From Saccoglossus kowalevskii (taxonomy: Eukaryota; Hemichordata; Enteropneusta; Harrimaniidae): a stretch of 21,552 nt of DNA. The stretch covers positions 698,464 through 720,015 of the forward strand of contig NW_003108580.1 in NCBI RefSeq assembly GCF_000003605.2, in the 5' to 3' direction. Positions within the stretch are counted from its first letter, which is position 1; every line of letters begins with the position of its first letter. Below, one piece after another: positions 6,268 to 21,552 of this stretch. The position numbers and the translations under genes are program-made. A model generated the notes under the pieces. That model saw nothing but the letters and a program-made list of their open reading frames with translations, made no database searches and was not told the DNA's origin.

Positions 6268-6482
6268 TCATACAGGGCATGAAGTAGGGGGTGGGTACGC
6301 AGGGTCGTTTATTGGTGCTGGTTGTGTTTGGTCTGGTTGAAATCCATATGCTGGTTGACCATACATTGGTGGTGGTTGACCATACATTGGAGGAGGTCCT
6401 GTCTGCATGTAAACAGGGGAAGCAACAGGCGCTGCATTGTAGGAGACGACCGCTGCCTGAGGACTCTGAGCAACTTGGTTGT
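6268..6482 (-). CDS. Gene A exon 4: proline/tyrosine-rich cytoplasmic tail
   Basis: The acceptor is TTTCTCCTAG (AG at 6484-6483), phase 1, and the stop is TGA at 6270-6268. The tail holds two near-identical heptads, PPPMYGQ, and ends in TSCPV. The heptad duplication gives two PPxY ligands for WW domains. It is the longest exon 4 of the three paralogues (215 nt against 83 and 131). Confidence 0.82.
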
Positions 6483-8152
6483 CTAGGAGAAAGCACATGT
6501 TCACAGAGTTTAGTTTTGCCTAATATGTATATGTTATAATGCACGAGTGAGGGAAATGAGATTGAAGATAGGCGACGAAGACATATATATCTTACCACCG
6601 AGTTATTGTGGTATATTGGGTACACGGGCAAACACGCAATAAATGAACACACTTACGAACAACGGTCCTACTACTTGGAGATGATGACGATGAAATACAG
6701 CATACACATGCTACGACGGCGATAATAACGATTAGTACAATCAAACCAATTATACCACAAACAACACCAATGATTATCTTGGTTCTATGAAATAAAAAAA
6801 AATAAAAAAAAAGTTCAAATGAATGTATATACTGTACAATACATTTTTATAAATGTAGTAACATAAGATTTGAATTGGAGGTCAATCATTTGAGACTCCG
6901 ACAACCAGTTTGAAATAAGGCTGGAGTTGCTGGAAGAATATGAGTGCAATTTTTGTCGCAGTGTCTTTTCTGTATATTTATATTTATTTTAATTTTTCGT
7001 GAATGTGTTATCCATTTTTTTTATCTTATCCTGATGTCTTGCCTAAATATTTTTCTTTCGGCCATCCCCCATGATTTCAAATGATCGACCTGTAACGTGT
7101 TGTTTCGCGAATCACAGTTTTCACGTATTTACGGACACAAATTGCTTACATGTGTTCTGCGGTATCTCCGATGTCTTCATTCAGGTTGTTCCAATCACTA
7201 TTGAATAGGTCATCAATACCGTCTGGGTCAATGCTACAACAATATTTGTCTGTATCTGAACCGCAACAGTATGAATCACACAAAAATCCGAACTGGTATG
7301 TATTGTAGTCGTCCCAATAACCGCTACAATAATCACTGACCGAAACACCTGAAATACAGCATAGTTAGTATTATAATGATGACGTCAACTGACCATACAC
7401 TTAACATCACATCACATCACGTGACCGGTCATGTCGCGTCTGCTTGCACCTCATTCACTGCTTCACGAACGTCACACTCATTGTTCCCGTTCATTATACG
7501 ACGTCGAAAACATTGTTTACACAATGAAATGTAGTTAGGCCCGAAAAAAAGTATACCGACTGATAACGAATAATAGCGACAAATATATAACTTTATATAG
7601 CGTTACATTGCGGTATTCCAGTGCGAGGAGCGGGTAATAACAGCGACGGTGCTGTATTTCAACATTATTTGTGATCAGTGAACTATAACATGCAATAGTT
7701 TGTTAAACTCCCCCTTTGTCAGGTCGACCACTAGTTTGCAAAGGACGTCAATTCTACACGTATAGTAGGTGGACGATGCAAAGACAAACAATAGGCGTGA
7801 ACACAGAGGCGTTGAAGTTTATTATATGTGACCTTTATTATTGTATGTCGAAATTTGAATTAAAACGGCTATAGACAAGTAGCTTGTGATGCAAGCGACT
7901 CACTAAATTAATTTTCTCATATGAGCCAATCAAAGTGCTTGTAGGCCATTCTATTTATAACTTGTATAACTATGTGAGAATCCAAACGAATAAGTTTGAA
8001 ACGTAGTTTCTATTAAGTTTAATTTGACGAGTCGAGTGTCTTGAGGAATGAACAGAAGGAAATCGATTCGAAGAAAACAAATTCTCACCTGCTAATAGCA
8101 GTAAAAGTAGAAAACACGTCAACTGGGCAGGTGAACTGTGTACAGGCGCCAT
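6268..8152 (-). CDS. Gene A: Shisa-like single-pass membrane adaptor, 4 exons, 201 aa
   Basis: Spliced CDS join of 8089-8152, 7150-7348, 6657-6784 and 6268-6482 (606 nt, 201 aa plus TGA). All introns are GT/AG with phases 1, 2 and 1. Residues 1-22 form a signal peptide with a run of six leucines. Residues 23-88 are the ectodomain, with exactly six cysteines (29, 45, 49, 50, 58, 59) in the order C-SGY, C, YCCG, YCC, then an acidic linker. Residues about 91-113 are the transmembrane helix with a GxxxG (94-98), followed by Cys114/116/117. The tail is rich in P, Y, Q and G and has PPMY at 161-164 and 168-171. The six-cysteine knot, one helix and PPxY tail are the signature of Shisa-like adaptors (Shisa, CYYR1, WBP1, VOPP1), which bind WW-domain proteins and work in membrane trafficking. 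Only three residues separate Cys45 from Cys49, against 11 in genes B and C. The ATG has A at -3 and G at +4. The assembly is well supported; the subfamily is not resolved. Confidence 0.85.
6657..6784 (-). CDS. Gene A exon 3: transmembrane segment
   Basis: The acceptor is TTTCATAG above 6784 and the donor is GTAAGTGTG below 6657. It is 128 nt, phase 2 in and phase 1 out. It encodes TKIIIGVVCGIIGL and a further 12 hydrophobic residues, then ACVCC, a serine cluster and RTVV. It has the same length as gene C exon 3 and the same boundary codons as gene B exon 3. Confidence 0.85.
7150..7348 (-). CDS. Gene A exon 2: six-cysteine ectodomain
   Basis: The acceptor is GTATTTCAG just above 7348 and the donor is GTAAGC just below 7150. 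It is 199 nt, entered in phase 1 and left in phase 2, with no internal stop. It encodes DYCSGYW ... FGFLCDSYCCG ... DKYCCS followed by an acidic linker. It is too short and broken to show as a long open frame and was found by its match to the exon 2 copies in genes B and C. Confidence 0.85.
7380..7424. promoter_or_regulatory. CRE-like and E-box palindromes in gene A intron 1
   Basis: A full TGACGTCA palindrome sits at 7380-7387 and a TCACGTGA palindrome at 7417-7424, separated by a short (ATCAC)n run. These match the consensus sites of bZIP (CREB/ATF) and bHLH-zip factors. They lie in intron 1, 32-76 nt upstream of exon 2. Short motifs like these occur by chance, so function is only a possibility. 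Confidence 0.2.
8089..8152 (-). CDS. Gene A exon 1: signal peptide
   Basis: Reads from ATG at 8152-8150 through a hydrophobic core, LTCFLLLLLLA, to the first base of a Gly codon. The donor is GTGAGAAT (8081-8088), phase 1. There is no in-frame ATG upstream. The 5' UTR limit is unknown, so only coding bases are given. Confidence 0.8.
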
Positions 8153-8183
8153 GTTTACAAGATTATGTTTGCTTGCATACCAT

Positions 8184-8220
8184 GGAAACAGCTGTAGTCT
8201 TTAGAAATGAAAGCGAGGCC
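8184..8220 (-). promoter_or_regulatory. Gene A upstream element shared with gene B
   Basis: On the minus strand this reads GGCCTCGCTTTCATT, ten variable bases, then ACAGCTGTTTCC. It lies 31 nt upstream of the gene A ATG. Gene B has the same 37-nt block, ungapped, with 25 of 37 bases identical, 30 nt upstream of its own ATG. The fixed spacing points to a core promoter, initiator or 5' UTR element kept since duplication. No TATA box is evident at gene A. Confidence 0.45.
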
Positions 8221-8276
8221 AGCAAGCAAGTTACCTGCAAGTGGTTTTACACACGTTTTGATTCAATCAAAGTTGT

Positions 8277-8468
8277 TTGGCCAATCAGATGGAATGTAGT
8301 TGGGCCAAGTATGGGGTCACAGTTAAACTAAGAAAGTCGTCCACGGCAGAATTTGCTATAGATGCTTTAGTTACAATTCTTCAAGATCAGTTAATATTAG
8401 ACACATTCACAGTGTTATACCCATTAATGACTGGCCCCACGCGCTCCCAACTAAAACAACACTTGTAA
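8277..8468 (+). other. Coding-like patch upstream of gene A, divergent orientation
   Basis: A 63-codon open frame starting MANQMECSWAKYGVTVKLRK and ending TGPTRSQLKQHL before TAA. The middle (AEFAIDALVTILQDQLILD) reads as an amphipathic helix. It starts about 125 nt from the gene A ATG on the opposite strand, so if real it would share a bidirectional promoter with gene A. No family is recognised; it could be chance. Confidence 0.2.
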
Positions 8469-8870
8469 CGTCATACTATTACATTGTGCGGTCGTTATCT
8501 TGGGGGCGCCTGTACTCCCGGAGAGGAGAACTCCTCTTACAATTCAAACAGGGATCACCTATTATGAAGGTTTGAGTGCAACTTCCTCCTCCATATTGAA
8601 GGAGAATTATTCAGCGGAGAGTAAGACCAGGAACTGGAACCAAACAAAGATACGGAGGAGATTAGTAAATAATCTGAATAAAAACAAAGCGGGCACAGAT
8701 ATGATTATACATGTACGTATTAATTTTGAAACAACGTATTGCGTCTTTGGGGCTGTATCGTGAAAAATATGTGGGTTTAATTTTGCCAAGTAAATGTTCA
8801 TGGCCATTAATAATAAAAAAAACTTGGCTACTAACTGAAAGCCAGCAAAAAACTAGATATTTATTTTAAG

Positions 8871-9081
8871 ACCTTTGACAGAATTATGTTATATATCATG
8901 TCATATGGATATGAAATTTGGGATTACGAACCTCATCCCCAACTAAAAAGTATACATTCACGATATATAGGCTTTGATTCGATTATGAGACAACTACAGC
9001 GTGGAGATCACGAACCTGTTTTTCTGCTGGAATTTACAAATCGGTCTAATAATAAAAACGATTGGGGAATGGTACTCAAAG
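8871..9081 (+). pseudogene. Coding-like patch; possible LINE reverse transcriptase C-terminal scrap or host exon
   Basis: An open stretch of 70 codons starts after TTTATTTTAAG (possible acceptor) and ends at AAAG before GTATGT (good donor, phase 1). Its N-terminal part, TFDRIMLYIMSYGYEIWDYE and then LKSIHSRYI, resembles the K-x-FD...LYG-x-EIWG...IE-x-IH-x-x-F block near the end of LINE-type reverse transcriptases. The remaining 40 residues (GFDSIMRQLQ ... NDWGMVLK) do not match that reading. No intact polymerase is present upstream. The two readings, decayed retrotransposon or exon of an unknown gene, cannot be separated by eye. Confidence 0.3.
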
Positions 9082-9653
9082 GTATGTTTTCTAGAGAAAA
9101 CCGCCTGTTATAGTAAGTTTAAACTTGGTTTTGGGCGGGAAAATTACCAGAATAAATAGGTAGACACAATGACACTGGCATATATTCAAAACTATTGAGC
9201 CAGACTGAAGTGAAGTTCGTTTGCTGTTAAAATGCCCTGGTTATGATCATCTGAGATTTGTACGGGAAACAAGTGTGAGAATTTCATTCATATTATGGTA
9301 TCATTAGAGTATAGAAATTAAATCACTTGCATTATTCAGTTATCATGCTTTATTACTCAGAGAGCAACTTTAATATAATTGGTGTTTATTGGCAAACTTA
9401 CAATTATTTATATAAATTGTACATGTGTATTATTTATGTATATAGGCGGGTGTCTAAATACGAAGAAAATATAAAGTTGACTGAACCAAGGTGTTTGTTG
9501 AGAGATTGTAAACGAGTGACCCGTGATTAATAAATGAGTGTATCTGGTGTGCCAGATATGTACATCCGGGTAATTTTTGTTCCACTCTTCCTTACATCTA
9601 CACACACAAAAAATGCACAACACATAACATGAGTTTTATATGTGTATATATCT

Positions 9654-9700
9654 GTGTTTGTTTGTTTGTTTGTGGGGGCTGCGTGTGTGTGTGTGTATGT
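9654..9700. repeat. (GTTT)n and (GT)n microsatellites
   Basis: A GTTTGTTTGTTTGTTTG run is followed after GGGGGCTGC by about seven GT units. Simple sequence only. Confidence 0.9.
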
Positions 9701-9745
9701 GGGAGGATGTTAAGTTAGAACCCTTTTCTGACTTCATAATTACAG

Positions 9746-9902
9746 TGGGCCACTAAACTAGAGGTTTACCTGTTTCGTGGTTTCCCCTGTTACTTAGATC
9801 AAGATGTACACATGACAGTGGACGCAAAGGAATTAAAAGTGCAACTATCTTCCACATTGCCCATTGAAATTAATACACCATGGCTGGACGGCGTGAATAA
9901 AA
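9746..9902 (+). other. Coding-like patch, possible plus-strand exon
   Basis: After a plausible acceptor (ACTTCATAATTACAG) the frame stays open for 73 codons to TAA at 9965-9967. It begins WATKLEVYLFRGFPCYLDQD, then VHMTVDAKELKVQLSSTLP and IEINTPWLDG, which looks like folded-protein sequence and not random translation. A weak donor (AG|GTCAAT) follows 9902. I do not recognise the family. It does not join in phase with the 8871-9081 patch (phase 1 against phase 0), so a missing exon or a relic is needed to link them. Confidence 0.25.
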
Positions 9903-9967
9903 GGTCAATATTTGGATCAAAATGTCTATCTTATATACGACGTTATTCAATACACATACTTATTTAA

Positions 9968-11159
9968 TATTCCGGGTGTGATTTAATTTTTAGATTTCGA
10001 AAGGTCTTCGACAGTAGAACACAGCGTTTTTGTACACTCACTCAATAAGTTTAACTTTATTGAACAGTTCATAAAATACACCTTAACGATATACAATGAC
10101 GATTGGGTTACAATTAATATACGGAGAGATATACGTTAAGCCTGCCCTCTATCGGCATTGCTATTTCATCCTGGTAATTACAACGAACGACCGTATAAAC
10201 CCAGCAATGTTTTAATTAGGTGCCTCAAGTGGACACAACCGGCTTTTAATTTTCTACAAATAATGAAATTCGTTAAACGATTGACCTAATCAACGAATTT
10301 AGAAGACATGTGCTAAAAAACAAAACAGAACATGTCTGTTGCTCTCGGCGTCTGGAACGATGGGAACGAAAAAGGAAACAAATTCAGTCCTCAGCTGACA
10401 AGACAAACCAATCAAAGCACATGTATAGGTTTGTTCTGCTACAATCAGCTTATACCATAAAACTATTAAAAATATTAAAACCTTGCTGTAATATGAAAGG
10501 TAGTAAATTAACTCAACACGGAAAGGCACGGAATACCGATGAGTGATGTATACATACACAATTAAGATTAAAAGAGATATGTTATTTGGTATGTACACAT
10601 CGTATAAGCTGTGGGTCCATAGCTCTTGTGTCGGTATTCAGTCTTTGTGATGGTATTTAAGTCATTTCTGATATATTTTGTGTCATTACATTTGTTATTA
10701 TCAGATAATAGGGTTTTTATCGACACAGAAGATCCATGGCGTAACACAAACGCGTGACGCCAAATGACCAAGGCTTTTCTTCACAAGTTAGCAACGCCGC
10801 CATACGGACATCCCAACTATTGGCTTCATCAATCTGAGACTCGCCTATAAAAATCTGAATGAATACTTGATGATCTTAAGTTTTTGACATTTGACATCAA
10901 AATATCCACAGTACCTTCGATATTTTGGTCCATGTAATATTCAGAAGTATTTAGAGCAAATCTGGTCAAAAAAACCTTAGATTTGCACTTTTCAAAGAAA
11001 ACTTTCAATTATATGGAGAAATAACAAAAAATGTGAATACAAAAAAAAAAAAAAAAACTCGCGGGAAATATGCAGATATCGGTTTAAACGGTTCATGTGG
11101 GAAATGTTCAATTACAAAATTTACTTGAAAATATTTGTTAGGCCATTGTCCCTCTCATA
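9968..11159. other. Intergenic, nothing recognised
   Basis: Contains frames of 60-99 codons at 10299-10771 with no domain, and a 17-A homopolymer at 11041-11057. No exon of the Shisa-like family is present. Confidence 0.55.
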
Positions 11160-11560
11160 CGAGGCCTCACCTTTCAAAGTTTACTGATTATTTTGTACGA
11201 TAATTTGACAAAATCTTGATTTTCAGTTGACATCGAGATTGAACGCCTGTATAACGTACACTTTCCGAAAAGACCCTCAAAATGACCAAAAATGATTGGT
11301 CTGGCACATTTCTTTACTGGACGATCCCTTTCTCCCTTTTACATGGGATTGACTGAATTGAGATTGAACGCACCTGTAAACGTCTTTATAACATTTTCGG
11401 AATAGACACCCTCGAATTGACTTACAAAAGTCGGTCTGGCACATTTCTTTACCAAGTGACCCCTTCCCTCTTTCATAGGAGATGTTTGACATTGTGTAAC
11501 CAGTATTTCCAAAATCATCACCCTAAGACTGGCCTGGCAAACCTAACGTACCTATAACAG
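11160..11560. repeat. Degenerate tandem repeat, about 125-135 bp unit
   Basis: GAGATTGAACGC occurs at 11235 and 11360. GGTCTGGCACATTTCTTTAC occurs at 11298 and 11433. Each unit ends in a CCCTTTCTCCCTTT-like or CCCTTCCCTCTTTCA-like run followed by a GGAGAT-like junction. A weaker third unit runs from about 11485 (GACTGGCCTGGC at 11527) and a partial unit precedes the first. Minus-strand open frames here repeat the KEMCQT peptide and are products of the repeat. Confidence 0.6.
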
Positions 11561-11878
11561 TTGTCATTTTAAAGAAAAATAGGTATGTAGTATGCAAATC
11601 GAGAACAGTAAACACGGCTCAGACTTAGACGGCGGATTTTTGCTCCCATGCTGGTATATTCAATAATTAAAAATTCATGTCATGGGAATTGACTATGTGT
11701 TATATTTTGGGCTATTGTTTATTACACGTGAACAAAAGTCGTGTTAATTTGCTTACTTAATTTCTTTCCACTTTGTTTTTGGTAATCGTAGTGAATTAGT
11801 ATCATCGTGCGACTAAATATGGGGGGGGGGTGTAGGTTAGTATCACATTGCAGTATGATGCAGTTTGGTGAGTGCAAG

Positions 11879-11884
11879 TTTATT
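11879..11884 (-). terminator. Gene B candidate poly(A) signal
   Basis: TTTATT on the plus strand is AATAAA on the minus strand, about 225 nt past the gene B stop. It is the first canonical hexamer downstream and lies at nearly the same distance as in gene A. Confidence 0.5.
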
Positions 11885-12107
11885 ATTCTAGCAATTAAAA
11901 CAAACAATACATTTATGAATTCTTGGGTAAATATGAATCTGAATTTTCATGTATTAATACAGCTTTCCACATTAAATTTCAAATAATATTTGAAGTTGAT
12001 AATATAATGTGTATAATTCATGCATGGTTTAGACGATACACTGTTAGGATGCATTCAATACGAAAAACGTTTTTGCTGATTAACACCTGTCCACTTGTAT
12101 AGTTTAG

Positions 12108-12190
12108 TTAGACGGCATACGACGGACCTTTTCCTGGCTCTGAATAGTTAGGCGGAGGCGCGTTGCTGTAGGCCGGTGCAGGGGCAGTTT
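12108..12190 (-). CDS. Gene B exon 4: short PPxY tail
   Basis: The acceptor is TTTTTTCTTTCAG with a strong pyrimidine tract. It is 83 nt, ending in TAA at 12110-12108. It encodes TAPAPAYSNAPPPNYSEPG and a final GPSYAV. There is one PPNY motif. It is the shortest tail in the cluster. Confidence 0.82.
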
Positions 12191-14077
12191 CTGAAAGAAA
12201 AAAAAACAGAAACATAACAATAACATCATTCTAGTTGCGTTATCCCATCTAATAAATTTGCAATAAAGTAATATTTTCCATCAAAATTAACTTACGATGT
12301 ACCACGGTGGTTGTAGCCTGGCTGCTTGATGTAGCCCCCTTGATACAGCAATACACACATACAACTATGCATACTATTATGAGGACCACAAGTGCAATGA
12401 CACCACATATTATTCCAATAATGACCGCCGTACTGAAAAATAAATATTTGTTAATTATTATTACACGAGTCCCTTGAATAACTGATACCATGTCAGACAA
12501 TGCGTGTACAAAGAAACCTTCCGATGTACTCGTACTTTCAATTAATTACTTATGTATTCGACAACAAGTAAAGATAACACATTGAGAAAGATGTACAAAA
12601 TAATTATACATACGCTAATCCGACAGCCGTGTCGACAGCATCGTCTAAATCGTTACCGAAATCAAAAGCTGATTGATCACAGCAGTATCTGTATGAATCA
12701 TCTCCACAGCAGTAGGTCTCGTCCTCAGTGTAAAGCAAGGTTGGACATTCGAATCCTTCATAATATATACCGTAACTGGTATAGCCTTCGCATGTATCAC
12801 TCGATACACCTGGAAAAGACGCAAACATTCACTGTTGAAACATTCACTGATGAAAACGCAGTGCGTATACGCATCTAGTGCAATTCGAATAATTCATTAT
12901 CTAAATGTATGAACAATAATTAAGTGGAAACAGAAGTGAAATTAATATCTTAATTACAATTTTAATTAAAGTGGAAGTTTTAGTTGAAGTCAAAATGGGA
13001 CCATGACAGAACGGAGCCATATAAGTAACTAATTATGGTACGTTCTATCGGTTCTGGTCGTGTCCGAAAAACTGGGTGGCCTGGGTGCGTTGTTTAGACA
13101 GCGCTTGTTCCGCCCAGAGAACTACTTCATCAATAATGTAACTTGTACAGCGCGAAATGACTGTCTTCATGATTTTGGCAATAGTTTAGCTTTTTAGAGC
13201 AACTATCCAATTGTTCCCGGGAAGTCACCATGACGGTTCTCACAACCCTGGCTGACCAAGTTACAGGATAGACTCTCGCTAGTAACACTTTAACAGATCG
13301 GACACGGCTGTGAACAGTTCTTATAAAACGGAGAAAGAATTCCTTGACTACAAAGTTCTCCATTCAGTACATATTTACATTTATTTATTGACACAGTAAT
13401 GACGTTGCACTAAAAAAACACAAAACAATAAAAAGAATTTAACAACAGGAGTGTAAACAAGCATTGGGAAAGAGTTTCTGTCATACCACCACCACCCCTA
13501 ACACTAATCCTACCCCTACCCTCCAGCTCTCCCCAATTTAATTTTGTATTCTCTTTCTAAAAAAATTTACTAAACTAAAATCATGGAGATCCCAGGTCGT
13601 ATTTTCACTGTCACTTCTATATAAAATAGCATGAGCCATACACAGCACAGCAAAACCGTTCTAATCTGAGTTATTCTGAGTTCTAATGTGACCATTCCCA
13701 CGTTATAAATTGATAACCATTACTGAATACAGCTCTCATCGATTGTGACGACCTTTCTGTCGACGATTATTGAAATTTCACTCGTATAACAATTTGGGAA
13801 GCTTCACTTTTACCCCTGTTAAATTATGGGCAAAGAATTGTGAAATGTGATTTGGTGCGTTTATCTTATCCCAATCTTTGCTGTAATTTTAGCTGCACCG
13901 TCGCGTATTTAAGAACAGTAGCCTAGTAGGTCACTTATAGCTGCCTACACTTTTGAAAAACTCAGCCAATGTTTAAAAGTTTTACATTTTTGAAACTCAC
14001 GTTGAATACGGGGTCTTACCTGCAATACTGATACACACCAAACACCAAATGATTGCGTACATGTTTGTGGCTGCCAT
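12108..14077 (-). CDS. Gene B: Shisa-like single-pass membrane adaptor, 4 exons, 157 aa
   Basis: Spliced CDS join of 14020-14077, 12614-12809, 12296-12432 and 12108-12190 (474 nt, 157 aa plus TAA), with intron phases 1, 2 and 1 as in genes A and C. Residues 1-20 form a signal peptide. The ectodomain carries six cysteines (26, 41, 53, 54, 62, 63) in the pattern C-EGY ... F-E-C-P ... TYCCG ... YRYCC. The transmembrane helix is about 88-112 with GxxxG at 91-95, followed by YCC(112-114)-IKG. The short tail carries one PPNY (143-146). By family knowledge this is a Shisa-like adaptor: an extracellular or lumenal disulphide knot, with a cytoplasmic tail that recruits WW-domain partners. Of the three, its exon 2 fits the family pattern best. 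Intron 1 (1210 nt) contains a duplicated copy of the gene's own upstream element. The start has A at -3 and G at +4; a second in-frame Met is codon 6. Confidence 0.87.
12296..12432 (-). CDS. Gene B exon 3: transmembrane segment
   Basis: The acceptor is ATTTTTCAG above 12432 and the donor GTAAGTTAA below 12296. It is 137 nt, phase 2 in and phase 1 out. The helix starts TAVIIGIICGVIALVV and is followed by CVYCCIKG and a Ser/Thr stretch ending TTTVVH. It is three codons longer than the exon 3 copies in genes A and C. Confidence 0.87.
12614..12809 (-). CDS. Gene B exon 2: six-cysteine ectodomain
   Basis: The acceptor is TTTTCCAG above 12809. The donor GTATGT (12613-12608) is chosen over a GTATAA four bases further on because only it leaves phase 2 and joins exon 3 in frame. 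It is 196 nt. It encodes SSDTCEGY ... EGFECPTLLY ... ETYCCGDDSYRYCC and an acidic Asp-rich linker. Confidence 0.87.
13300..13345 (-). repeat. Second copy of the gene B upstream element, inside gene B intron 1
   Basis: Aligned without gaps to 14108-14153, 34 of 46 bases match, including AAGGAATTC at one end and ACAGCCGTG at the other. Similarity also continues weakly on both sides (GAACTTTGTxGxC upstream). The copy contains TTTTATAAG, a better TATA match than the functional-position copy. No signal-peptide ATG follows it. It may be a relic of a fourth gene's promoter, a local duplication or an alternative promoter. Confidence 0.4.
14020..14077 (-). CDS. Gene B exon 1: signal peptide
   Basis: ATG at 14077-14075 opens MAATNMYAIIWCLVCISIA and one base of a Gly codon. 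The donor is GTAAGACC, phase 1. The hydrophobic core spans residues 7-19. The exon is too short to stand out as an open frame; it was recognised by joining in frame to exon 2. Confidence 0.8.
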
Positions 14078-14107
14078 TCTTCACTCGACGCAAGCTTCAA
14101 TTGATTG

Positions 14108-14153
14108 GGGCACGGCTGTCAGCAGTTCCAATGAAAGCGAAGCCGAATTCCTT
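14108..14153 (-). promoter_or_regulatory. Gene B upstream element (conserved with gene A)
   Basis: The minus strand reads AAGGAATTC, GGCTTCGCTTTCATT, ten bases, ACAGCCGTGCCC, ending 30 nt before the gene B ATG. The 37 nt nearest the gene match gene A at the same spacing. All 46 nt match a second copy inside gene B intron 1. This is probably core promoter or 5' UTR sequence. Gene C has no recognisable copy. Confidence 0.45.
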
Positions 14154-14286
14154 AGACTTGACAAATAGTCCACAAAGTTCACTACTCCGTCAGGCATCAT
14201 TTAGAGTGACAGGTGCGTACATACCTTGTTCATTGTAATGTGCATTGTAATGTAAAATACCAAAGCAATTGACCTTCCATCAATAA

Positions 14287-14416
14287 CAATCACCATAATT
14301 TGAAGATTCAAAGCAACAATCACCATAATTTGAAGATCCAAATCAACAATCACCATAATTTGAAGATTCAAATCAACAATCACCATAATTTGTAGATTCA
14401 AATCAACAATCATCAG
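14287..14416. repeat. 30-bp minisatellite upstream of gene B
   Basis: Four units start at 14287, 14317, 14347 and 14377, each beginning CAATCACCATAATTTG, and a broken fifth starts at 14407. Units differ at only one to three positions. The open minus-strand frame across it (repeating MVIVDLNLQI) follows from the 30-bp period and is not a gene. The array starts about 130 nt upstream of the gene B promoter-proximal element. Confidence 0.85.
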
Positions 14417-15424
14417 GAATTAATATTAACCAATCACCAACAAATAAAACCTATACAAAAATAACCACAACTCTCCAATTTTGTTTAAAATATTAGTACA
14501 CACAGACCATTTTCTACCAGTACAAAGTAAGTTTACTTCAGGTAAGGTGTGGTTCATTTGAACTCCTTAAAGGGGTTATCATTTTTGGAAAACAATTTCA
14601 ATTTATGGATAGTTAAGTACAAATTATCAGTAAGTAGTATCTTCCGTCGTCCTAAAGATGGTTCATTCCATGGCAGATCTCAAACAATTTAGGTCAAATG
14701 AAAACCCTCAAATAGGAGAAAATATATGGGCGAACAGCACCATAAATATAAAATGTATTTTTTTGAAGTGATCCACAGACCAAAAGATATTTGTTGGAAT
14801 ATAATACAAACGTAGAAGAATTCAATCGACAGGTTTACGGTACAGTCACAAAGATTACATTTATGAGCTTTCGTGTACGGTGAGATGTAAATGTGTCACT
14901 TGTTTCCTGGTTTGTTCAGTCAAATTTATAACTATTAGCAAACCGATTCTCATATCGAACAAAATTGTATAACCCACATGTAAGCCAGTTGGACATTTTG
15001 ACATAACATGTGTGCTGTTCGAATCAAGTTTAAATTCAATCATACTAATCCACAGCTGACGTAATTGAAGTTCTCCCTCAAACATCGCGTTTTAGATAAA
15101 ATGTGGTGGAGGGAAACAAATAATGGCTAAAGAACGCTGATAGGCTAATTGGTGGTGTGAACCCTGTAAGCAAATTCTCATGGAATAAGGCACGAACCTA
15201 GATCATTGGGCAACTACATTAGATGGACAGCCACGGTGTATTATTATAGTGTGCCCTTCAACGTCCGATAGGCAGCAATATAACATCGATACCCGGTGTA
15301 TCCAAGCCACAGTGCTGTATACTATGCATGTAATAATTCAGGGTTAAATATATACAGCACACTTAATGGGTTACTATTGTACATTATGCTTTCTGTTAAC
15401 TATTTAATTTACCAATAATACTTC
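14417..15424. other. Intergenic, nothing firmly recognised
   Basis: The minus-strand frame 14861-15085 starts MFEGELQLRQLWISMIEFKL and looks mildly coding, but it has no family match and no convincing splice partner. No other feature is seen. Confidence 0.5.
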
Positions 15425-15479
15425 GTGATTTTGCAACACGTATCATTAGAAAACGGTATTTCGTTATTTTTGTGCAAAC

Positions 15480-15615
15480 TAATTTACATACTGTCCTTAA
15501 ATGTCACATTTCTGTCAGATGAACTCGTCCCTAACAAATATAATTATGTCCATACAGGTAACAACATTATCACATGGATTCAACATGGTTGGACTATAAA
15601 AGGTAATAGATTATC
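15480..15615 (+). pseudogene. Possible LINE endonuclease scrap
   Basis: The open frame contains FLSDELVPNKYNYVHTGNN followed by IITWIQHGW. This resembles the late block of LINE AP-type endonucleases (F/YTY...ISWIDH), in which Asp and His of the IDH motif are conserved. Here the Asp is Gln, and no other endonuclease blocks are intact, so it would be a dead fragment. Recognition rests on one block only. Confidence 0.3.
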
Positions 15616-16433
15616 ATTGTGAGCAACAAAATATTTCAAAACTGTACAGCGCCATCAGCGGCGGCTGTCCCAGACGCTCTGCATCAGGACATGGTAGTGT
15701 TTGTTTCACGTACTAGTGTATAATATTAATGTACACTTCCAGATAGCGAATAAGAAACTCATTGTAGGCAGCCATTTTTAATTGTTATTAGTATTCACTC
15801 GGTGCGAAATACCTGTATGGTATGAAGTATCTTGGAGTGCAGCAACAACATGGTACGAAGCTACCATATGAATGCACGAAGCTCTGAAGGTTGTCATGAC
15901 ATGAATGCAGTATACTGACCTCATGGATTCAGAACTGACAAAGTGTTACATATTTGATTCCACCAAGAATGAAGGATGTAAATTTACTCATGTTCACATT
16001 GCAAGATGTGGGATTAGTATGAACTGACTAGAGGTTATTCGGGTTCTGCTAAATCAGTCACAATAATAGCATATAATGTCAGCTGGACAAGGAACTGATA
16101 ATTAGGTCAATGACTGTCAAAAAACAATGATCGTATCGAACATAGAGTTACATGAAACCGTTATTTATTTAGAATATATTGCTCTTATACAAGATTCTAG
16201 TATACTGACATTGACCAAGGGCGTAGGCAAAAGTACCCGGGTCAATACAATATTTTCTTCTTGGCTAAAATGAGTTATATTAGTAACATTGCGTCTTGCT
16301 CAGACCCAGAGTTTTAGAAAACGTACGCTTAGTGCGTACAAGATATGACCGCGATTTTTTTGAAAACGTTCGAATGTATGACGCTTTGAGTGACCTTATT
16401 AAAGTCATCACCCTCAATGATAATATACCTCAC

Positions 16434-16596
16434 CATAACTAAAAACCTTCGCTGTCATTTCATGCAACCAGGTTGCAAGTAACTGCATATATGATAACGG
16501 TTGTTTTGATGAAAGCCGCCAAATACTTCCACTCCACTTAGTCCACACAGATTCAATCACTGACTGAAAAGCTGACACAATCTCAAGAGTGGCCAT
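16434..16596 (-). other. Orphan coding-like exon between genes B and C
   Basis: An ATG with G at -3 and G at +4 opens MATLEIVSAFQSVIESVW, continues through SGSIWRLSSKQPLSYMQLL and ATWLHEMTAKVFSY, and meets a good donor (TATG|GTGAGG), phase 1. The composition (Trp, Met, Leu and Ser with helix-like periodicity) looks coding. It lies about 110 nt beyond the gene C poly(A) signal on the same strand. No signal peptide or Shisa feature is present, and no partner exon was found. It could be a transposon scrap or the first exon of an unknown gene. Confidence 0.25.
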
Positions 16597-16708
16597 AACA
16601 GAGCGTTACTGTCATTTCACGCTATCACCGACATCTATGGTCATAGTAATTAATAGCTTTCAAAGTAGAGATGTGCCTGTGGAAATCGATCAATGTAGAA
16701 TGATACAA

Positions 16709-16714
16709 TTTATT
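16709..16714 (-). terminator. Gene C candidate poly(A) signal
   Basis: TTTATT on the plus strand, AATAAA on the minus strand, about 270 nt past the gene C stop. It is the first canonical hexamer found downstream. Confidence 0.45.
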
Positions 16715-16982
16715 TGACCTCTGAGGTCATCATTAATGTCATATTTACAATTACAAAACAATTGAAAGCAGTAATCAGGAGTAAAATACAATTACATCTC
16801 ACGTTTATAATCATGTCATTTTTTAAAATGAAAAAATTAAAAGTACATTTTTCATTATCTGTAAAATTGTCTGTGTAATGTAGTCTTTAAATCGTGTTAT
16901 AATTATAATGCACTCTTCTTGGTTAAATGTGCTTGTTGTTTTGGTTCAGTATTTGTCCAACAACAGTTCCTTACGGATGTAC

Positions 16983-17113
16983 TTATTTGCCATATACCTG
17001 CGCTACTGGGTCGTATGTCGGTGGCAGCTTAGCGTACGGTGGTTGTAGTCCATACGCTGGCGGTGATTGTACAGTCCATAGCGCGCCATCTGGTGGTGGA
17101 TTAAATTGGGTAT
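16983..17113 (-). CDS. Gene C exon 4: PPxY tail
   Basis: The acceptor is AACTTTACAG above 17113, phase 1, and the stop is TAA at 16985-16983. It encodes PPPDGALW, SPPAYGLQPPYAKLPPTYD and VAQVYGK. The two PPxY motifs and an overall P/Y-rich make-up match the exon 4 copies of genes A and B, although the rest of the tail does not align. Confidence 0.78.
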
Positions 17114-19565
17114 CTGTAAAGTTGTAACAAATCTAGTCAATGAAGTGGAATAATCCTTGCAAGAACAAATGTAATGTCTAAGTGTTACAATTATGGCCCA
17201 AAACGGTGTGAATATTGTAACATTTGCATCATTACATAACAAATATTAATATACATCTTTCACTGTAACGCCATGAGTTACAGCGTGCCGTAATTTTGCG
17301 GTATTTTAAGGGTTTTGTTCATCCTACCATATAAGGAAATGCGAATTCCAAATATGAAATGATTACACGCGTAAACGTCCTCTAATAATAAAAACAAACA
17401 CGGCTGCCACCAAGGTTTGACCGGACTCCACACAAAAAAGTTCGCTGATTCTGTTCTAAACTTTTTGGATTTCGGCATTCACATGATGTATCCTTGAAAG
17501 GCAAAGATGTATAATAATAAGGTTATTACGAGGATACCTCAAAGTATGCACTCAGACAGTACGTCTCGCATAGTGTCGCTGTACTCAGGCTGTATTCGTG
17601 CAAACTTCCTCGTAATAACCTCATAGTCAGTCTAATGGTATTTGTGAGTAACCAAAGCGGTCCTTGAAACCATTAATCACACGCCCACACGAAGTGATTC
17701 TTTAGTAGATGTTTGTTTCTTATACTTACGAATTACGTGGGTTCGTGTACTTTTGTTACTTCCTGCTTTGATACAACAACACACACATGCGGCTATACCA
17801 GCAATGGTTCCAACAATGATAAGTACAGTAATAACAATTCCAAAGATTGCAGCTGTCCTGTTTACAATGTACGAAATAGTGCCTTATTGATATATTGTAA
17901 CATACAAAGGCTGTACTACACAACAGCAAAAACATGCTTCTTTGTTAAGTTTCAGGAGAAAAGACAAGACAGTTTATAGGTACCATCTCGAGGTGTAATT
18001 AATACCAATGATTGTCTGTCTTGATTGCAAAATATTATTATACAAATCTCAACTTTTCATGTAACTCCGTGGTGTGAACATGCCCTTTGAATATACCGGT
18101 GATAAATTCCATGATTAGTAGAGTCATGTACTTCATTAGCTACTATTGGATTTATGTAATAACGAAAATGGCTCGGAGTACATTTTCTCCACCCGTCATT
18201 TTCTCCACCCGTCAACGCGAATACTCATTGGTTGCCAATCATCTAATATTGTATTAAATAGACGAGTTTCGAGTTCCCGGTGTTGTTAAGTTAGTAAACG
18301 CGTGTGCCTCTGTTTTGTTCATTTGTTGATATCTCACGAAAAATTGTATTTGCATCAACTATATTGTATATAGATACAACATTCTCCAAGCTGTTATAAT
18401 ACGGTATCTTATAAGTTATTGTTGACCAAAAGTGAACGTCGAACGAGCCCCTCGTGATGGAATAGCAACAAAACAAGATGTGAATTCAAAAAATTATCTT
18501 ATTTAAATTGTATATAATAATATTTTGTAAAGGTTATTCGGATGATCGGAAAACGTCACTGTTACCACATGTAATGATGAAAAGTTGAGTATAATATAAT
18601 TGACAATCGTAATCAAAATTAAAAATAATACAAGGAAATCCCTGGCAGCTCTTTCGAGACTGTACTGAGTATGCCACCTGCCATATTGACGATTTAGCGC
18701 CCCATTACAATGAAGAGCAATGTCACCAAAATATCAATAAGATGACATAGTAATGGATTTTAGTTATTTTAGTTATAATTACAGTGAGACGTAACACATC
18801 TTTAATTTGACATGATAGTGCAAAACGTTGGGAACAATATAATATATAACAATTTTAACGTGCCGTGCTTTATTAGTCGTTTTTTGCTGCCAATAGCACA
18901 AATATCCGTCAGATGTTAATGAATATATGCTTATATGTTTAAACGATTATAGCCCCCCCCCCATTCAGGCATTCTCTCGCTTTGAATTGTTATCGTGTTG
19001 CTGTGTTACAGTTACCATGCCAAGAGTAATATTTACTCATGAACGGTACTTGTGTATTTTGAGTCGGTACAAGCGGGATGTTATATGTCCTGTTCAACTA
19101 CTTTTGTTAACTACGTATACTGGTACCATTGGGGTCAAGTATTTCTATGACGTGCGTAAAGTTATGACCAATTGTAGTTTTTATGTAATTTTCAACCCTC
19201 ACTTGTACAGTGGCACGCCGGCTATTCGACCTTCTAGAGTAGCTTTTAACTGTGGGCGAGTCTTCCTAGGTTGCCTGCCCAGAACAAGTACGACTATTAC
19301 ATTATTGTGGTAGTTAAGTGAAATTAGATTGCGGACATTAACTCACCCGAGACCAGTGGGTGCACTTAATCCATAAGACAACCAGTCATCGTAACCACAA
19401 CAGTATTTGTAGGTACTTGAACCACAGCAGTATGTCTCAGAACTGGAGTCAAACCATTTGGGACAGGTGAAACCTTCTGTAAAATCACCCTCGAAATCGT
19501 AATAACCGTAGCAATATTCGCTTCTTACCTCTATAGTGAAGGAACGCACACTTTCAGTGAGACTG

Positions 19566-19600
<35 letters not shown>

Positions 19601-20083
19601 ATACTATAGTTTAATACTACCGGTAAACCCATGAAATAGTAAATATTTGAGCAAATTAAAAAAAATGATCGGACACATTTGTTAATGACGATGTCCTTGT
19701 TGCAGTTTGTTGTTTTTAGTGAATATGTAAAAACATTGGTACTGTGCACCTGAGATATCCGTCATACACGTCCTACGTATGCAGTACAAGCATGTACGCG
19801 CCAAAATCGATTGTGTCTGACAATTTAAAAAAAGGTTGGTTCAAGAACACGTAATTTGCTGTTATAAATTGCTTTAATTTCGACAATGCTAGTGGATGAA
19901 AGTCTTTTTTAAAAGTAAAACAATTACGTCACCAGAAGACAGTTTGACCGATACCATAAACACCTAATAAAAAATAGAAACTTAGCAATATAATCCGACG
20001 ACACATTCTCCTGGATACATACCTGTGATAGTGAGTGCAAGATAACACAACGTTAACATCAGTAACTGGCGAAGAGTTTCCAT
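16983..20083 (-). CDS. Gene C: Shisa-like single-pass membrane adaptor, 4 exons, 167 aa
   Basis: Spliced CDS join of 20023-20083, 19347-19530, 17730-17857 and 16983-17113 (504 nt, 167 aa plus TAA), with intron phases 1, 2 and 1. Residues 1-20 form a signal peptide. The six ectodomain cysteines are 27, 43, 55, 56, 64 and 65 (EYCYGYY ... GFTCPKW ... ETYCCGSSTYKYCCG). The helix is about 84-105 with GxxxG at 98-102, directly followed by CVCCC (106-110) and a basic IKAGSNKSTR stretch, which fits a cytosolic C-terminus. The tail contains PPAY (142-145) and PPTY (155-158). By family it is a Shisa-like transmembrane adaptor that docks WW-domain proteins. It has the longest introns of the cluster (492, 1489 and 616 nt), and these hold a hairpin element and an (AT)n tract. 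The Cys43-Cys55 spacing equals that of gene B, so genes B and C may be the closer pair. Confidence 0.85.
17521..17620. mobile_element. 100-bp inverted-repeat element (MITE-like) in gene C intron 3
   Basis: GGTTATTACGAGGA at 17521-17534 is perfectly inverted at 17607-17620, giving a 100-bp unit with 14-bp terminal arms. The interior has no open frame. It could be a miniature inverted-repeat transposable element or a folded RNA. No clear target-site duplication is visible next to the arms, so the class is unassigned. Confidence 0.4.
17730..17857 (-). CDS. Gene C exon 3: transmembrane segment
   Basis: The acceptor is ATTGTAAACAG above 17857 and the donor GTAAGTATA below 17730. It is 128 nt, phase 2 in and phase 1 out. 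It encodes TAAIFGIVITVLIIVGTIAG, the CVCCC cluster and a basic segment. Confidence 0.83.
18181..18212. repeat. 16-bp tandem duplication in gene C intron 2
   Basis: CATTTTCTCCACCCGT occurs twice back to back (18181-18196, 18197-18212) without a mismatch. Confidence 0.85.
18927..19313 (+). other. 128-codon open frame in gene C intron 2, unassigned
   Basis: This is one of the longest uninterrupted frames in the window and lies antisense within gene C intron 2. An internal Met starts MPRVIFTHERYLCILSRYK, faintly like the N-terminus of some mariner-type or helix-turn-helix transposase proteins (MPRV-x-FT...). The rest shows no domain. The upstream end crosses a C homopolymer (18954-18961). Most likely a chance frame or a scrap of a transposon. 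Confidence 0.15.
19347..19530 (-). CDS. Gene C exon 2: six-cysteine ectodomain
   Basis: The acceptor is CCTTCACTATAG above 19530 and the donor GTGAGT below 19347. It is 184 nt, phase 1 in and phase 2 out. All six cysteines and the CxGY, YCCG and YxYCC signatures are present. The linker before the membrane is short and not acidic, unlike genes A and B. Confidence 0.85.
19569..19597. repeat. (AT)n microsatellite in gene C intron 1
   Basis: A pure AT run of 29 nt. It lies only 39 nt upstream (on the minus strand) of the exon 2 acceptor, so it covers or borders the branch-point region of that intron. Confidence 0.95.
20023..20083 (-). CDS. Gene C exon 1: signal peptide
   Basis: ATG at 20083-20081 opens METLRQLLMLTLCYLALTIT and one base of a Glu codon. 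The donor is GTATGTAT, phase 1. A is at -3 and G at +4. Nothing in the 120 nt upstream resembles the element shared by genes A and B. Confidence 0.78.
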
Positions 20084-20862: not shown

Positions 20863-20893
<31 letters not shown>

Positions 20894-21329: not shown

Positions 21330-21543
21330 TATTTGAATTACAAACAGTTCTAGGCTCATCGAACTGATTTAGGGTAGATTTAAGGGTCATTATAGAGGCT
21401 ACAAAACACACATCTGATGGAATACGCTCATCAAGAACCCGATCGATGACCATCACCACATCCACTGTCCTTGACTGTACTATATGATGACCATCACCAC
21501 ATTCAATGTCCTGGACTGTATTATATGATGACCACCACCACAT
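21330..21543 (-). other. Possible exon running into the 41-bp repeat
   Basis: On the minus strand the frame reads VIDRVLDERIPSDVCFVASI, then MTLKSTLNQFDEPRTVCNSN, and ends at a strong donor (AATA|GTAAGT, phase 1). Its upstream half is the minisatellite. It may be the end of an exon of a gene continuing to the right, or a chance frame. No family is recognised. Confidence 0.18.
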
Positions 21544-21552
21544 CCACTGTCC
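21445..21552. repeat. 41-bp minisatellite at the right edge
   Basis: Units begin at 21445, 21486 and 21527, each GATGACCAYCACCACATYCA, and the third is cut by the window end after 26 bp. The period of 41 is not a multiple of three. The full copy number lies outside the window. Confidence 0.85.

Follow-up and report, generated by a model that had tools for sequence, protein, structure and literature searches.

Which genes lie in a 21,552-nucleotide (nt) stretch of the Saccoglossus kowalevskii genome (C286:698464-720015; hereafter the window, G+C 35.6%), what do they encode, and did they arise by duplication on the spot? Three genes named A, B and C, whose positions are given in window numbering, were rebuilt there from the sequence. 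Together with their neighbours they form a tandem cluster, and they combine a common gene structure with a Shisa_N domain, a membrane segment, PPxY motifs and an amino-acid conservation that goes beyond that of the synonymous sites. The reading preferred here, with a probability of about 80%, is that A, B and C are functional Shisa-like paralogues in a cluster of at least eight members that kept duplicating.

Gene structure and family identity of A, B and C

The three genes share one build of four exons each, all on the minus strand (Table 1). An earlier note on this DNA had proposed the same exon coordinates and coding totals, and all of them proved correct. The nine introns have GT-AG borders without exception, and the phases 1, 2 and 1 recur in each gene, as the note had stated. 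Introns 1 and 2 fall at an identical column of the protein alignment in all three genes. Intron 3 occupies the same column in A and C, where it splits a codon for H, and is found one residue later in B (Q following H). Each donor agrees with the consensus at 4-6 of 7 positions, and the donors rank at the 85th-99th percentile among all GT of that strand. On a simple pyrimidine score devised for this analysis, the acceptors rank at the 78th-99.9th percentile among all AG. Furthermore, an in-frame stop precedes each ATG by 6, 51 or 81 nt, the start context shows A at -3 and G at +4 in every case, and AATAAA starts 224-269 nt past each stop codon. It is true that open-frame calling misses such exons, but this holds for intron-bearing genes in general.

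Table 1. Genes A, B and C and their exons, with positions in window numbering; bit scores are those of unspliced frames against PF13908
Feature	Position	Strand	Remarks
Gene A	8152-6268	-	606 nt coding, 201 residues, single terminal stop
A, exon 1: start codon and putative signal peptide	8089..8152	-	phase 1 after
A, exon 2: six-cysteine Shisa_N domain	7150..7348	-	40.5 bits; phase 2 after
A, exon 3: transmembrane segment	6657..6784	-	hydropathy maximum 3.49; phase 1 after
A, exon 4: proline-rich tail, stop	6268..6482	-	two PPMY motifs
Gene B	14077-12108	-	474 nt coding, 157 residues, single terminal stop
B, exon 1: start codon and putative signal peptide	14020..14077	-	
B, exon 2: six-cysteine Shisa_N domain	12614..12809	-	40.0 bits
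B, exon 3: transmembrane segment	12296..12432	-	hydropathy maximum 3.62
B, exon 4: proline-rich tail, stop	12108..12190	-	one PPNY motif
Gene C	20083-16983	-	504 nt coding, 167 residues, single terminal stop
C, exon 1: start codon and putative signal peptide, weakly hydrophobic	20023..20083	-	
C, exon 2: six-cysteine Shisa_N domain	19347..19530	-	38.0 bits; best fold match 5m0w
C, exon 3: transmembrane segment	17730..17857	-	hydropathy maximum 2.81; within CYYR1 profile match
C, exon 4: proline-rich tail, stop	16983..17113	-	PPAY and PPTY motifs

In all three proteins a single transmembrane segment follows the cysteine domain, and the N-terminus is strongly hydrophobic in A and B, as judged for both features by hydropathy alone. 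The tails carry one or two PPxY motifs each and differ greatly in length and sequence.

The Shisa-like identity and topology claimed in the earlier note are supported. The profile check that it had proposed for the spliced proteins gave 37.2, 37.2 and 35.5 bits for A, B and C against Shisa_N (PF13908, Pfam cut-off 22 bits). Chance is excluded without relying on splicing, since the unspliced frames of the cysteine exons exceed this cut-off as well (Table 1). The pattern C*C*CC*CC, given for STMC6 or Shisa-like proteins in PMC5578492, was found in the three genes and in all eight further exons described below. In a profile search of the PDB the top match was Shisa-3 (5m0w, E 3.3e-12), the remaining 11 matches having E values of 0.013-0.93. 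The fold predicted for the cysteine exon of gene C also has 5m0w as its best PDB match (probability 0.99, 48% identity over 44 columns), which is weak support from the fold.

The note had named Shisa, CYYR1, WBP1 and VOPP1 as families with this topology. Shisa held for all three proteins and CYYR1 (PF10873, cut-off 31 bits) for C alone, which reached 40.6 bits in a match running through the membrane segment and tail; B scored 20.8 bits, below the cut-off, and A gave no listed match at E up to 1. WBP1 and VOPP1 were not supported, as neither profile was listed for any of the three proteins at E up to 1, a search in which HMMER filters drop weak matches. The CCSYYAY box of CYYR1 is absent from A, B and C, whose last CC is followed by SIDPD, DQSAF and GYDDW. 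Likewise, the proteins end in SCPV, SYAV and VYGK and not in EVTV, given in PMC6470934 as the C-terminal motif of CKAMP (Shisa6-9). Judged by these sequences, A, B and C very probably belong to the Shisa-like (STMC6) family, and their assignment is best kept at the level of the family, not of one subfamily.

The tandem cluster and its history

The cluster is larger than the window shows. The window ends where contig C286 ends, and the original finding stopped at three copies because the window stops there. The flanking sequence, which the note had suggested inspecting, holds five further cysteine exons below the window. In a profile scan of C286:600001-720015, eight cysteine exons were found between 673,095 and 718,066, all on the minus strand and in the order H673, G676, F681, E688, D695, A, B and C, and none was found below 673,095. 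The full cysteine pattern is present even in the two weakest, D695 (E 0.0006) and E688 (E 8e-5).

The searched genome comprises 572,110,611 bases in 4830 contigs. The cysteine exon of gene C, used as query, recovered eight places: itself, B, three C286 positions below the window and single positions on contigs C370, C1047 and C3976. No further places were obtained with the B exon (5 places) or the C370 exon (7 places) as queries, and the gene A exon found itself only. The resulting eleven copies in the genome are a lower bound.

All eight exons outside the window, five in the cluster and three dispersed, passed Shisa_N with 24.2-45.7 bits. Matches to a membrane exon (E up to 0.01) lie close to seven of the eight cluster exons, F681 being the exception, and to two of the three dispersed exons, C3976 being the exception. 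A phase-1-compatible acceptor lies 11-23 nt ahead of the first cysteine codon in all 11 exons; its phase was read as 1 after calibration on A, B and C, the raw label counting codon-completing bases. A phase-2 donor follows the cysteine exon in 7 of 11 cases by a strict rule, which misses the real donor of gene B, finds none at G676 and C1047 and yields only a phase-0 candidate at C3976. The length of the cysteine loop varies: the stretch ahead of the first CC is shorter by about eight residues in gene A (window 7152-7346), and it is reduced in D695 and E688 as well.

Amino-acid identity over aligned residues amounts to 68/144 for A-B, 62/153 for A-C and 56/142 for B-C. Synonymous divergence (pS) is 0.84, 0.70 and 0.73 for these pairs, which means saturation, and nonsynonymous divergence (dN) is 0.53, 0.61 and 0.58. 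DNA alignment of the three gene regions gave short stretches only, the best being 38 bases between the cysteine exons of A and C. Since the synonymous sites are saturated and the amino acids conserved, A, B and C are old copies kept as proteins. The neighbours D695 and E688 share 79-82% DNA identity over stretches of 413-457 bases and pair with a support of 0.98 in a tree of the short cysteine domain (12 rows, mouse Shisa-3 included); by their sequences, they are comparatively recent duplicates, younger than A, B and C. In the same tree, C1047 groups with B, D695 and E688 (0.74) and C370 groups with A (0.82); mouse Shisa-3 takes a position within the set of copies (0.72). In pairwise comparison, C370 is about equally near C (68%) and A (67%). 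Of the lineage-specific local expansion proposed in the earlier note, the local part is supported by these sequences because a stretch of about 45 kilobases contains at least eight cysteine exons of one strand and one neighbouring pair is recent. The note also took the family to be usually dispersed, and three of the copies are indeed on other contigs.

Several repeats adjoin the genes. Gene C has an AT microsatellite in its intron 1 (window 19569-19597) and a second one upstream (20863-20892). A tandem array of a 30-base unit (14285-14412, 4.3 copies, 95% matches) is located directly upstream of gene B, and an array of a 41-base unit (21445-21552, 2.6 copies) reaches the end of window and contig, so that the contig may break within this repeat. 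At C286:681664-683386, beside exon F681, a long minisatellite repeats every 71 bases or so, with copies about 93% alike. Between A and B, two 58-base direct repeats (window 11273-11330 and 11408-11465) are 74% identical, and an open frame on the plus strand (8835-9113) has the wording YGYEIWDYEPHPQL. The latter presumably resembles the C-terminal end of animal long interspersed nuclear element (LINE) reverse transcriptases; in Pfam the frame had no match at E up to 0.1.

Proposed mechanism and rival explanations

By comparison with studied relatives, each protein would be a type I single-pass membrane adaptor. Its disulphide-rich domain would contact a client membrane protein. The cytoplasmic PPxY tail would recruit a partner with WW domains, which on the model of CYYR1 is most likely a HECT ubiquitin ligase of the NEDD4 family, and either client or ligase would be steered through the endosome-lysosome route. 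In PMC11399591, CYYR1 is shown to bind the WW domains of WWP1 and WWP2 through its PPxY motifs, to have ITCH as another partner and to send WWP1 from late endosomes to lysosomal degradation. The involvement of a WW-domain ubiquitin ligase is put at about even odds by this analogy and is favoured because PPxY occurs in three otherwise dissimilar tails. The proteins could also be Shisa proper, acting mainly via the cysteine-rich domain by holding or escorting receptors, with PPxY incidental in proline-rich tails. All three pass Shisa_N, their closest solved structure is Shisa-3, invertebrate Shisa1/L1 sequences were grouped with Shisa5 (PMC7653359), and Shisa1-3 are described in PMC6470934 as hindering Wnt and FGF receptors from leaving the endoplasmic reticulum. 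However, PPxY is kept in all three tails despite their very different length and sequence, and C matches CYYR1 too, across membrane segment and tail, which leaves this explanation a serious but less probable one.

A weak point of the gene models is that the N-terminus of gene C has no 19-residue window with a hydropathy above 1.6, unlike A and B. The saturated synonymous sites of A, B and C speak against a young origin of these three. The saturation would suit an older cluster common to many animals, with A, B and C not stemming from the expansion of one lineage. The CYYR1 profile, passed by C and by neither A nor B, points the same way, and because mouse Shisa-3 falls among the copies, the cluster genes are unsupported as a single clade. 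Yet eight same-strand copies in so short a region indicate growth by local duplication and the D695-E688 pair is young; this explanation, rated slightly higher before the cluster count and that pair, is now considered doubtful. The shortened cysteine domain of gene A, as well as the weak signal peptide of C and the microsatellite in the intron before its exon 2, could hint at decayed pseudogenes, but in all three genes the reading frames and splice sites are intact, as are the start contexts and the polyadenylation signals, and amino acids are conserved far beyond synonymous sites, which makes decay of even one of them highly improbable. It is unlikely, though less so, that the cluster is a nursery of Shisa and CYYR1 genes, a view suggested by C meeting both profiles amid at least eight Shisa_N genes that share the exon plan. 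Tandem duplication of a Shisa gene would then have given rise to CYYR1, and clusters of this kind would go on yielding adaptors that differ in cysteine-loop length and in tail.

Significance and comparison with known systems

The models of A, B and C are a sound annotation of ordinary animal genes from a known family; their significance is modest and nothing is overturned. A family poorly sampled outside vertebrates gains three well-formed models and eight further domain positions, the tandem cluster is still duplicating, and one gene meeting both the Shisa_N and the CYYR1 profile helps to order the origins of the subfamilies.

WBP1, VOPP1 and TMEM92 (STMC6) have the same general topology as described in PMC11399591 and PMC5578492, but none of them was listed in Pfam at E up to 1 for the three proteins. 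Human CYYR1 is reported to have four exons, the CCSYYAY box and three PPPY motifs (PMC1863428). A, B and C resemble it in exon number and in the PPxY of the tail, with gene C above the curated cut-off, and differ from it in having one or two PPxY motifs and no such box. With the Shisa family (PF13908; 5m0w, mouse Shisa 3) they share the C..C..CC..CC domain, one membrane segment and a proline-rich tail; the shortened domain spacer of gene A and the row of at least eight copies set them apart. A Shisa Pfam family is also named among annotations over-represented in gill in a mussel transcriptome (PMC5549309). Independent Shisa expansions in invertebrate deuterostomes have already been published, PMC7653359 giving 16 genes for Saccoglossus kowalevskii and 6, 6 and 8 for three amphioxus species, compared with 0-2 in the protostomes listed there.
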